From Mediterranea sp. (in: CFB group bacteria) (GTDB taxonomy: Bacteria; Bacteroidota; Bacteroidia; Bacteroidales; Bacteroidaceae), in contig JAISHU010000104.1 in the NCBI GenBank assembly GCA_031262385.1, positions 1-49,026 on the forward strand: 49,026 nucleotides of DNA, in the 5' to 3' direction. The notes beneath the pieces were generated by a model. The model was not told the DNA's origin. It saw only the letters and a list, made by a program, of their open reading frames with translations, and ran no database searches. Numbering within the stretch: the first letter of the stretch is position 1; every line of letters begins with the position of its first letter. Below, one piece after another: positions 9,219 to 47,924 of the stretch. Position numbers and translations under genes: made by a program.

Positions 9219-9957
9219 ATCTGCCACACCCACGTTCAGCATCATCACCGTAACTTACAATGCGGAGGCTGTTCTCGACGATACGTTGCAAAGCGTCATC
9301 GCCCAAAGCTATCATCGTGTGGAATACATCTTGATTGACGGAGCCTCTACCGACGGAACCCTTGCCATAGCCGAAAGATACAAGACACACATCACTCACT
9401 TGGTAAGCGAGCCGGACAAGGGATTGTACGATGCCATGAACAAAGGGCTTGCACTGGCGAGCGGTGATTATGTCTGCTTTCTCAATGCAGGCGATGCGTT
9501 TCATTCGTCGGACACCTTGTTACAGATGGTACATACGTTACCCAAAGGCAGTATGCCCGACATAATATATGGCGAAACAGCGCTGGTGGATGCCCATCGT
9601 CACTTTGTACGCATGCGCCGTCTTTCCACTCCCGAAGTGCTTACTTGGAAGAGTTTTAAGCAAGGTATGTTGGTCAGCCATCAAGCTTTCTTTGCCAAGC
9701 GCACCCTCACCGAACCCTACAACCTGCAATACCGCTTTTCGGCGGACTTTGACTGGTGCATCCGTGTGATGAAAAAGGCGCAAACCTTGCACAACACGCA
9801 CCTCACCCTCATCGACTATTTGGAAGAAGGTATGACTACGCGAAACCGACGCAAGTCGCTCATCGAACGCTTTCGCATCATGGCAGTTTATTACGGATGG
9901 GGAAGTACCGTGGCACGCCACCTTGGGTTTGTGTGGCGGCTGGTGAAGGTGAGGTAG
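9211..9957 (+). CDS. Glycosyltransferase family 2 (WcaA-like)
   Basis: TPTFSIITVTYNAEAVLDDTLQSVIAQSYHRVEYILIDGASTDGT; GTG start at 9211 overlaps the GT4 stop. The ORF track start at 9037 would overlap GT4 by ~180 nt. Confidence 0.87.
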   Translation: MYKSATPTFSIITVTYNAEAVLDDTLQSVIAQSYHRVEYILIDGASTDGTLAIAERYKTHITHLVSEPDKGLYDAMNKGLALASGDYVCFLNAGDAFHSSDTLLQMVHTLPKGSMPDIIYGETALVDAHRHFVRMRRLSTPEVLTWKSFKQGMLVSHQAFFAKRTLTEPYNLQYRFSADFDWCIRVMKKAQTLHNTHLTLIDYLEEGMTTRNRRKSLIERFRIMAVYYGWGSTVARHLGFVWRLVKVR

Positions 9958-10019
9958 TTCTTTAATAGTTGTCGGATAATATCCTGTTTACGCATCAAAA
10001 TGTCACAATATTGCGCTTT

Positions 10020-10500
10020 CTGCTAACTCGTACTTTGCAAAAAAAGAGTGCTCAGCCGGAAGACAACGCACTCCGAAGCCGTAGCCAATTCGTTGCAAAC
10101 GCGAAAACAACGAATCAACTCGGCGGAAACAACGAATCATCCGCACGAAAACAACGAACTGTCGGCACGAAAACAACGAATCAACTGCCGGCTTAGCAAA
10201 TTATCCCGGCAAGTTAAGCTGTATTTCCCGGCAAATTATTGTGTTATCCCGGCAAGTTATCACGCTAACTTGCCGGGATAATTTCATAAAGTTCTTTTTG
10301 AGGCTGTTTTTTCGCGCTGAAGGCGCTTTTTGTTTCTTGACATAATTTCTTCATATCTTTCTGTAAGTATGCGGATTAAATAGCGTATTTTACATAGTTT
10401 AACGCGCTATACTCGCACGAAAGTCACCAAGCCGTCCCTTAGTCCGAAATAAGCCCGTTTTTCGAGGGTTCGTTTGACGTTTTGACACTTTGTCAATGGA
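10020..10500 (-). repeat. Locus A: intergenic mosaic repeat element (22-bp periodic) in the same family as locus B, inverted
   Basis: aacaacgaa at 10106, 10128, 10150, 10172 (exact 22-bp spacing). cccggcaa at 10205, 10227, 10248 plus an inverted copy at ~10269. 10455-10487 and 10394-10409 are inverse matches to locus B. Confidence 0.9.
10244..10281. repeat. Perfect 16-bp inverted repeat (hairpin) within locus A
   Basis: TTATCCCGGCAAGTTA – TCACGC – TAACTTGCCGGGATAA. Confidence 0.95.
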
Positions 10501-10636
10501 TGCGTCTCCCAACTTCTACCCGTACACGACCTGCCAAAAAAGGGAAACCGCCCTCTCCCTTTGACAGGAAAAGACAGTCTCCCGGATATAGAAACGAAGA
10601 TTAGATATAACTAACGACCCTTTCTATCTTATATAT

Positions 10637-11602
10637 TTAGCTAACAGGGATCCCTTCGGGAGTTATCCGCAGATGCCTTTCGGCTTCTCCGCGTTCCAGT
10701 TCGATGACATAGAAATTGCCGGTAGGAGTTTCGAAATAGTCTGCGTCGTCAACGTAATAACCGCTGAAATTGGCAGATATATAAGCTGCTACGGCAGAAG
10801 GTAATTCGGAGGAACGTACTTCCCACGAGGTGGAAATCCATTCGAACGTCGTAGAATTTAGGCGCACCTCTTTGCCGCGGTTCACATTCAAGTCGATAAT
10901 ATCGACTTCGATAGAACTATATTCGCGTTCAATCTCAATGATACGTGCATTGGGAAAGAGTTTCGCAATGGCATCTTGCACCGAAGTATAAGTGCCGGTA
11001 GGAGTTGTCGGTAGCAAAGCTCCGGTGTCGCCGCCTGCAGTTGCACCGTTGCCGGTACTACCGGTGTCGCCGCCCGTTCCGGTATTACCCGAATTGCTGT
11101 TGGTGCTGTTGCCGCGTTCGTCAACGCCCATTACAAAGATACCGTCTTCGGTGTAATACAAATCCCAGTCCACTTCGCCCACAAGGGTTTCTACGTCTAT
11201 AATGTAAACCGATTTGGAGTTGAGGCGCTCCACAAAGTCCACTTCGCCGTCGCGACGTTCGTAAACAGTCCGGTCGTTATATTCGCTACTTTCAAAAATG
11301 TTTTTAACAGCTTGCGGGATGGCAGCGTACGGCATCTCGGTAATCGTCATATACCACGTACCGTCGGGAGCATACCATACTTCGGTTTCATAGCCTTGGG
11401 CGTTTCTAAAAGTCGCTCTGTAATAGTTGGATGCCGAAACATTGCGCGTCTCCCAATTCAAATTCGAAGCACCCGCATAGTTTTGCTCAAAAGCTTTAGT
11501 AACAGGGTCGGGCACATTGTACAGGGAAGGGTTGTCGTTCTTTGTGCAACTATGCAGAGCAATCATTCCCATTGTTATCAAAATAAAATACATTTTCTTC
11601 AT
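10637..11602 (-). CDS. PepSY-like (DUF2874) lipoprotein with two PepSY-like regions joined by a Gly/Thr/Asn-rich linker
   Basis: MKKMYFILITMGMIALHSCTKND lipobox; NLNWETRN…YETEVWYAPDGTW; linker NSNSGNTGTGGDTGSTGNGATAGGDTG. Confidence 0.78.
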   Translation of the reverse strand: MKKMYFILITMGMIALHSCTKNDNPSLYNVPDPVTKAFEQNYAGASNLNWETRNVSASNYYRATFRNAQGYETEVWYAPDGTWYMTITEMPYAAIPQAVKNIFESSEYNDRTVYERRDGEVDFVERLNSKSVYIIDVETLVGEVDWDLYYTEDGIFVMGVDERGNSTNSNSGNTGTGGDTGSTGNGATAGGDTGALLPTTPTGTYTSVQDAIAKLFPNARIIEIEREYSSIEVDIIDLNVNRGKEVRLNSTTFEWISTSWEVRSSELPSAVAAYISANFSGYYVDDADYFETPTGNFYVIELERGEAERHLRITPEGIPVS

Positions 11603-26041: not shown

Positions 26042-26058
26042 TCCCTCTCTTGTCATTT

Positions 26059-26460
26059 TGTCAAAACGTCAAACGAACCCCTCGAAAAACGGCTGTTTTA
26101 CGGACTGAAGTACGGCTCGTGACTTCCGATGCCCGTGTAGCGCGTTAAACTATCTAAAAAATAGGGCTTAATGTGCACTCATCCAGAACGATAAGCTCCA
26201 AAAATCTTTGCGAAGAAAAAGCGTGCTCAGCGCGAAAAAAAGTCCCCGAAAAGAACATTCCGAAATTATCTTGCCGAGTTAGCGCGATAACTTGCCGAGA
26301 TAAATCAACAATTTGCCGAGACAGACAGCTTAACGTGCCGGGAAAAATAGTTTTCCCGGCAGCCGGTTCGTCATCTCCGTGTAGTTGATTCGTTGTTTTC
26401 GCGCAAACAGTTTGTTATTTCCGTGCAAACAGTTTGTTGTTTCCGCGCAAACAATGCATT
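26059..26460 (+). repeat. Locus B: intergenic mosaic repeat element (21-22-bp periodic), inverted homologue of locus A
   Basis: NTTGCCGAG-type cores at 26270, 26291, 26312, 26334; second-module units at 26364, 26386, 26408, 26430, 26452 (exact 22-bp spacing); TGTCAAAACGTCAAACGAACCCCTCGAAAAACGG at 26059-26092 and TAGCGCGTTAAACTAT at 26138-26153 match locus A reverse complement. Confidence 0.9.
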
Positions 26461-26604
26461 AAAAACGGGGCAAGAGCAGATTGCCTCCGTTTAAAGAGCG
26501 ATTTTCCACAAAGTGACGGTTAGGGAAAAAGGCAAAAAGACGACAGATTGATAGGATGAGGCGAGAAATAGTTTCTTTTTAAAAAAACACATCCCTCCCC
26601 GCCT

Positions 26605-32920: not shown

Positions 32921-33102
32921 TTAACTCGGCAAGTTAACACGCTATATCGGTAGTTTATAGCGATTATTCCGGCAAGTTATTTTATTATCTCAGTGATTCA
33001 CGTTTGTCAAACAAGTGATTCACGTTCGCCAAACAGGTGATTCACAAATGCCAAACAGGTGATTCACAAACGTCAAACAAGGAGTTGCCGCAATGAAACA
33101 CT
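32921..33102 (+). repeat. Locus C: 22-bp periodic intergenic repeat between convergent genes
   Basis: gtgattca at 32993, 33015, 33037, 33059 (exact 22 bp) with degenerate unit at 33081; ggcaagtta-type cores at 32928, 32949, 32971. Confidence 0.92.
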
Positions 33103-47826: not shown

Positions 47827-47924
47827 CTTTACCGTCCGACCAACGTCGTACGAGCGTCCGACGATGGTTGTACGACCGTACGACGTTGGTCGGACGCTCG
47901 TACGACGTTGGTCGGACGGTAAAG
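47827..47924. repeat. Locus D: four tandem 22-bp units forming a perfect 36-bp-arm inverted repeat
   Basis: Units start at 47833, 47855, 47877, 47899; arms 47827-47862 and 47889-47924 (CTTTACCGTCCGACCAACGTCGTACGAGCGTCCGAC and its exact reverse complement). Confidence 0.95.

Follow-up and report, generated by a model that had tools for sequence, protein, structure and literature searches.

A dispersed non-coding element of Bacteroides with a central array of fixed 22-bp period and changing unit sequence

The repeat array and the element around it

In the window, which is the whole stretch of 49,026 nucleotides analysed here, a glycosyltransferase gene on the + strand (end at 9957) and a lipoprotein-like gene on the − strand (end at 10637) are convergent, and a phased repeat array lies between them (Table 1). 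The array is built of two modules. In module 1, AACAACGAA starts at 10106, 10128, 10150 and 10172, with spacings of 22, 22 and 22 bp; in module 2, CCCGGCAA starts at 10205, 10227 and 10248, with spacings of 22 and 21 bp. The hairpin at the end of module 2 is perfect, with 16-bp arms (10244–10259/10266–10281), and is followed by T runs. With one mismatch allowed, AAAACAACGAATCA occurs four times in the window, versus 0.05 occurrences expected. The neighbouring genes are housekeeping genes, and no cas or transposase gene is present among the neighbours tested. The first-pass annotation had described both sets of repeats, the perfect hairpin, the convergent genes and the lack of a nearby transposase or cas gene; each of these points was found as described.

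The array at these positions is confirmed as real and above chance: the 271-bp array stretch has ∼40 matches in its own genome, which cover most or the whole of it at 85–97% identity. The first-pass annotation was right about a phased array, but it had taken the array for a single locus; the array is the centre of a non-coding element of ∼510 bp that is scattered through the genome. As listed in Table 1, the window contains two copies, A and B. The similarity of copy A to most other copies stops near 9978 and 10507, and for one copy at 10630. Since its head is located at the right end, the genus-wide element reads on the − strand at copy A.

Table 1. Coordinates of the two element copies and of the parts of copy A in the window
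Feature	Position	Strand	Basis
Element copy A, core of 516 consensus positions, head at right end	9981..10496	-	Alignment of 69 near-full own copies
Tail motif GAGTTAGCA(A)AAAGCGC of copy A	10013..10029	-	Common to other species
Module 1, four 22-bp units, core AAAACAACGAA, variable ∼11-bp spacers	10102..10189	+	
Module 2, three 22/21-bp units, core CCCGGCAAGTTA	10201..10259	+	
Hairpin, last module-2 unit and its inverted copy	10244..10281	.	
Head block of copy A, homologous to GAGAATCGCKTATTTCnGnCC... of other species	10376..10471	-	Profile R1
Terminal motif CAAAGTGTCAAAACGTCAAAC of copy A	10472..10492	-	Pattern matches and conservation
Element copy B, ∼71% identical to consensus, intergenic, orientation opposite to copy A	26050..26552	+	

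The right-end motif occurs 81 times in the own genome at up to 3 mismatches; a shorter version of it occurs 84 times, 42 times on each strand, with 0 control hits. The pattern of the terminal motif was found 82 times in the own genome, and fewer times per genome in 23 other genomes. The copy number of at least 81–84 is a lower bound, and probably an underestimate, because the ends of several contigs fall within an element; the own-genome analysis covered the stretches around copies. The own copies are intergenic and equally distributed on both strands. The 271-bp stretch has 0 matches in 99 other genomes of the genus, and the element has no match in the plasmid (72,556 plasmids), phage and viral-contig collections.

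Two further arrays are present in the window. At 32921–33085, a different 22-bp array (GTGATTCAC cores, CAAACAAGTGATTCACAAACGC) adjoins CGGCAAGTTA motifs that are like module 2. It is probably a second array type of the same genome; related arrays are located at L160:2955-3053 and, next to an element-type right end, at L128:2646-2739. At 47831–47918, one 88-bp near-perfect palindromic array is composed of 11/22-bp units (CGTCCGACCAACGTCGTACG...), and its sequence is unrelated to the element.

A genus-wide family with one period and many unit sequences

Weak right-end matches in related genomes led to loci that have the same end and different 22-bp arrays. The head motif GAGAATCGCGTATTTCGGCCC (up to 3 mismatches) was found at more than 120 places, spread over more than 30 Bacteroides genomes (genus in the GTDB sense), versus a handful of places for the reversed control. 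A sequence profile of the conserved end (A1, R1), 119 positions in length and built without the own genome, matches 72 of the 159 genomes of the genus and 40 of the 93 good ones, with at least 20 copies in each of several genomes, the scoring being capped at 22 copies; its threshold misses diverged families, and 87 of the 159 genomes have no detected copy at that threshold. Profile R1 has one sole match in the 49-kb window, at 10454–10409 on the − strand (E 0.0043), and it matches 31 of the 67 other own-genome stretches that hold copies (E ≤ 0.056 in 308 kb); at the genome-wide threshold of 0.001, the profile has no match in the own genome. The matches in the window and in the 31 stretches indicate that the own family is one diverged member of the genus family. 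A search of 84,980 named species placed the exact two-part motif at 57 sites, all of them in Bacteroides or its segregates. Named isolates that carry the element include Mediterranea massiliensis, Bacteroides ndongoniae and Caecibacteroides pullorum.

The family shares one layout: a head and a tail (GTTAGCAAAA), both conserved, enclose the array of 22-bp units. The head contains the terminal motif TGACACTTTG, followed by GAGAATCGC[G/T]TATTTC and by a further conserved block ∼85–100 bp on; in the other species, TGACACTTTG usually has the opposite orientation relative to the head. The tail motif of other species, located near +404, is the counterpart of the own tail motif.

The period of the array was analysed at 98 loci of other species, which were chosen by the head and not by the array. 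Downstream of the head, 22 bp is the strongest lag in 88 of the 98 loci, which are not all independent, as they come partly from sister species and several species contribute many; the corresponding control numbers are 5/98 (shuffled), 3/98 (upstream) and 2/45 (downstream). For 85 loci, lag-22 matching in the region 140–350 bp after the head is 0.445, versus 0.257 after shuffling (z 65). Lags 44 and 66 are also in excess, with z of 63 and 25, respectively; lags 11 and 33 show no excess in the 85 loci, and neither do the flanks. In one small sample of unselected stretches of the same genus, none of 7 arrays has a period of 22. The first-pass annotation had named two outcomes that would speak against it, namely lag-22 matching no more frequent than in shuffled sequence and membership of a known repeat family; neither was observed, and no Rfam family is above the gathering threshold in the element.

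Different from the period, the unit sequence is free. At 16/22 identity or higher (the largest chance value being 14 in 300 trials), 90 unit consensi fall into 45 clusters, and the GC content of the units ranges from 0.23 to 0.77 among the 90 arrays. Dyad symmetry of the units exceeds that of permuted units (z 7.3). Conservation of the 22-bp spacing despite near-complete change of the letters suggests a platform for a DNA-binding protein. In the first-pass annotation, all cores were placed on nearly the same face of the DNA, an argument that requires a helical repeat of 11 bp; with a repeat of 10.5 bp, each unit is rotated by ∼34 degrees relative to the one before. Either the bound DNA would therefore have 11 bp per turn, or 22 bp would be the length of the footprint.

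Variation, inheritance and mobility

Compared to the consensus, the 69 near-full own copies contain 3819 substitutions and only 18 indels, so the spacing is preserved and the repeat number is nearly fixed; 4 of the 18 indels remove exactly one 22-bp unit. The spacing constraint is thus seen twice, as avoidance of indels within one genome and as a fixed period across species. The mean pairwise difference between own copies is 15.8%. The distance to the nearest neighbour is mostly 8–11%, with a minimum of 7.4%, which indicates that there are no recent duplicates among them; with no near-identical pair among them, the own copies give no sign of current mobility.

In 65 own copies, 191 of 516 positions are invariant, and singletons account for only 136 of 3266 differences. 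Linkage between variable sites is at the null level beyond ∼20 bp, and mutual information is confined to local pairs, mostly within ∼15 bp, with no sign of a long-range stem among the own copies. Assembly chimeras are an unlikely source of the lost linkage, as the decay over ∼20 bp is shorter than the usual assembly word lengths. Two histories are compatible with this pattern of variation: exchange among the copies may be pervasive, or the copies may be numerous, old and each under a constraint of its own.

Recurrent in-place mini-inversions of 4–5 bp (TGCCG/CGGCA and GCCC/GGGC) were observed between own copies, at core positions 291–295, 251–253 and 474–475, which correspond to ∼10231–10276 and ∼10454 of the window in copy A. 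In one example, AACT[TGCCG]AGATAA versus AACT[CGGCA]AGATAA, the states are linked at three sites and split 42:27. Template switching within small palindromes may have produced these mini-inversions.

Orthologous copies in different species can be recognised by their flanking genes, and one orthologous pair (L236/L238) aligns through the array without any indel. For the copy next to aroC, four sister species with AroC identities of 96–100% have the head; in outgroups with AroC identity of 90% or lower, no head was detected in the interval between the corresponding two genes. The gap at aroC is ∼290–360 bp in the clearest outgroups, versus 770–780 bp with a full element; outgroup gaps are sometimes long, for example in G091. 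In G091, the long intergenic gap upstream of aroC (L393) holds one isolated end motif, CATTTTGACACTTTG, and no head; this motif may be an element remnant. A single gain with subsequent inheritance is the best reading of the aroC copy; the intergenic DNA has diverged too far for an exact empty site to be defined.

Like MITEs, the element is short, non-coding, multicopy and intergenic. Inspection of the flanks of ∼70 own copies, the exact ends of which are uncertain, revealed no target-site duplication. The ends of the own-genome element share only short similarity; in other species, TGACACTTTG is found at the far end (up to 1 mismatch) in inverted orientation in 2 of 98 loci and in direct orientation in 5 of 98, and no clear terminal inverted repeat was found in the own copies or in these 98 loci. 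Due to the lack of target-site duplications and clean terminal inverted repeats, we do not file the element as a MITE, though it is MITE-like in behaviour.

Strings of the 8-bp repeats CATTAGCA/TATTGACA are present in the flanks of many own copies (for example L149, L152 and L170). The flanks also hold TGCACCGCCTCATTAGCACATTA; in some copies the opposite flank carries it in inverted form (TAATGTGCTAATGAGGCGGTGCAC). Together, the strings and TGCACCGCCTCATTAGCACATTA may represent another intergenic repeat, one that is frequently adjacent to the element.

Possible functions and related systems

The observations are best explained by a non-autonomous, mobile-like, non-coding element of Bacteroides, which probably carries an iterated protein-binding platform. 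The array would be a row of abutting predicted binding sites for one protein. As the units lean towards dyad symmetry, the protein is probably a homodimer, and its assembly may take the form of a filament or comb; a DNA-bound assembly with one pair of subunits on every 22 bp would explain the spacing constraint. If the specificity of the protein and the unit sequence co-evolve, the spacing would be conserved and the sequence would not. The candidate protein may be the element's own mobiliser (a transposase or recombinase) or one host DNA-binding protein, and propagation together with exchange between copies would homogenise the array within one species. We tentatively extend this to a possible kind of chromosomal platform, in which the 22-bp phase rather than the sequence is selected, with one fast co-evolving protein, species-specific units and tens of copies per genome. 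As the first-pass annotation proposed, iterated binding sites for a protein, phased at 22 bp, are still the best functional reading; a role tied to convergent genes or to bidirectional termination is not supported.

Instead of a mobile-like element, the copies may be sites of fixed chromosomal function (nucleoid organisation, segregation, insulation or domain marking), spread in ancient times and kept per locus, with one host protein on the 22-bp comb. Indel-poor evolution without young copies, the even spread on both strands without preference for gene orientation, and the retention of orthologous copies are all in favour of such sites. However, the number of detected copies varies from 0 to at least 80 per species (in 87 genomes none reaches the threshold, which misses diverged families), and presence at aroC is clade-specific; we consider this reading unlikely.

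Bacteroides has paralogous small RNA families such as FopS (PMC11697453), and the hairpin and array may likewise act as RNA, either sponge or scaffold. The hairpin of the window copy is perfect, and one Rfam match to this Bacteroidetes family (RF04319) is located at L246:2810-2875 (−), 1.3 kb from one element copy. The Rfam match is absent from the element itself, however, and 77 head sequences gave no consensus structure or covariation on either strand, nor did the scan for covarying stems give any stand-out, so that we rejected a structured RNA. Among the 69 own copies, the right arm of the hairpin is in the TGCCG state in 27 and in the CGGCA state in 42, these being mini-inverted forms; the CGGCA state breaks the stem, and no long-range compensating change was seen. 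A small RNA family is thus quite improbable. Even less credit is given to an ordinary minisatellite, in which 22 bp is merely the unit duplicated by chance: tandem duplication is the obvious route to such arrays, but the period is kept despite the 45 clusters of unit sequences, and a whole unit is missing in only 4 of 69 own copies, different from the free unit number of VNTRs. The bidirectional terminator suggested by the hairpin, the T runs and the convergent genes of copy A is hardly credible, as only 19 of the 63 resolvable own copies lie between convergent genes (+E−), versus 15 between divergent ones (−E+), 17 in −E− and 12 in +E+ context, and the copies in other species are similarly unbiased (17/18/21/17); the same lack of orientation bias led us to reject a promoter role.

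Three other identities were rejected. Many copies have an open frame of ∼100 codons, but across the copies all six frames contain stops and the 22-bp losses break the frame, which argues against protein coding. Different from CRISPR, the units abut at the 22-bp period with imperfect cores, and the housekeeping neighbours include no cas gene. The element is not a plasmid iteron, being unmatched in the plasmid collection and surrounded by chromosomal housekeeping genes in the window.

By architecture, the nearest described relative of the mobile-like element is BrickBuilt, a MITE of Porphyromonas gingivalis that is dispersed, strictly intergenic and non-coding, with ∼20 copies (PMC4596501). BrickBuilt also belongs to the order Bacteroidales and is composed of a leader, an array of short direct repeats and a tail; its unit is 23 nt, the unit number varies from 1 to 22.8, IS5-like terminal inverted repeats occur in some copies, and nucleotide similarity is confined to one species or its sister (PMC4596501). 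Like BrickBuilt, the Bacteroides element occurs in Bacteroidales and is dispersed, intergenic and non-coding, with an end-array-end layout and with nucleotide similarity that is confined in the same way. Different from BrickBuilt, its unit is 22 bp, the unit number is nearly fixed, no terminal inverted repeat or target-site duplication is established, and dozens of species have the period in common but not the unit sequence.

BOX elements of pneumococcus are also modular, dispersed intergenic repeats with end modules and one iterated middle, present in ∼100 copies, and their modules have been described as RNA stem-loops; the Bacteroides element, unlike BOX, has no covariation, and its units keep an exact 22-bp phase while their sequence is free. 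Plasmid iterons and partition centromeres are direct repeats of ∼20–22 bp bound by one cognate protein, with replicon-specific unit sequence and shared architecture. In contrast to them, the element has tens of chromosomal copies, and no rep or par gene is found beside the window copies. The arrays bound by MuA/TnsB-type transposases contain 22-bp sites, often abutting, at transposon ends; here the array is internal and no transposase is linked.

Conserved spacing with unconserved sequence over dozens of species is unusual among bacterial DNA repeats, and no description of the element was found in the literature searched, in which a subscription paper could be missed. We predict that in each species one protein binds its own 22-bp unit cooperatively; owing to the named isolates among the carriers, binding is testable on cultured strains. 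If the element is mobile, tens of intergenic regions in each genome would be shaped by a species-specific repeat family of Bacteroides; a host site would point to a nucleoprotein system, spread over the whole chromosome and so far undescribed, in one of the major genera of the gut.
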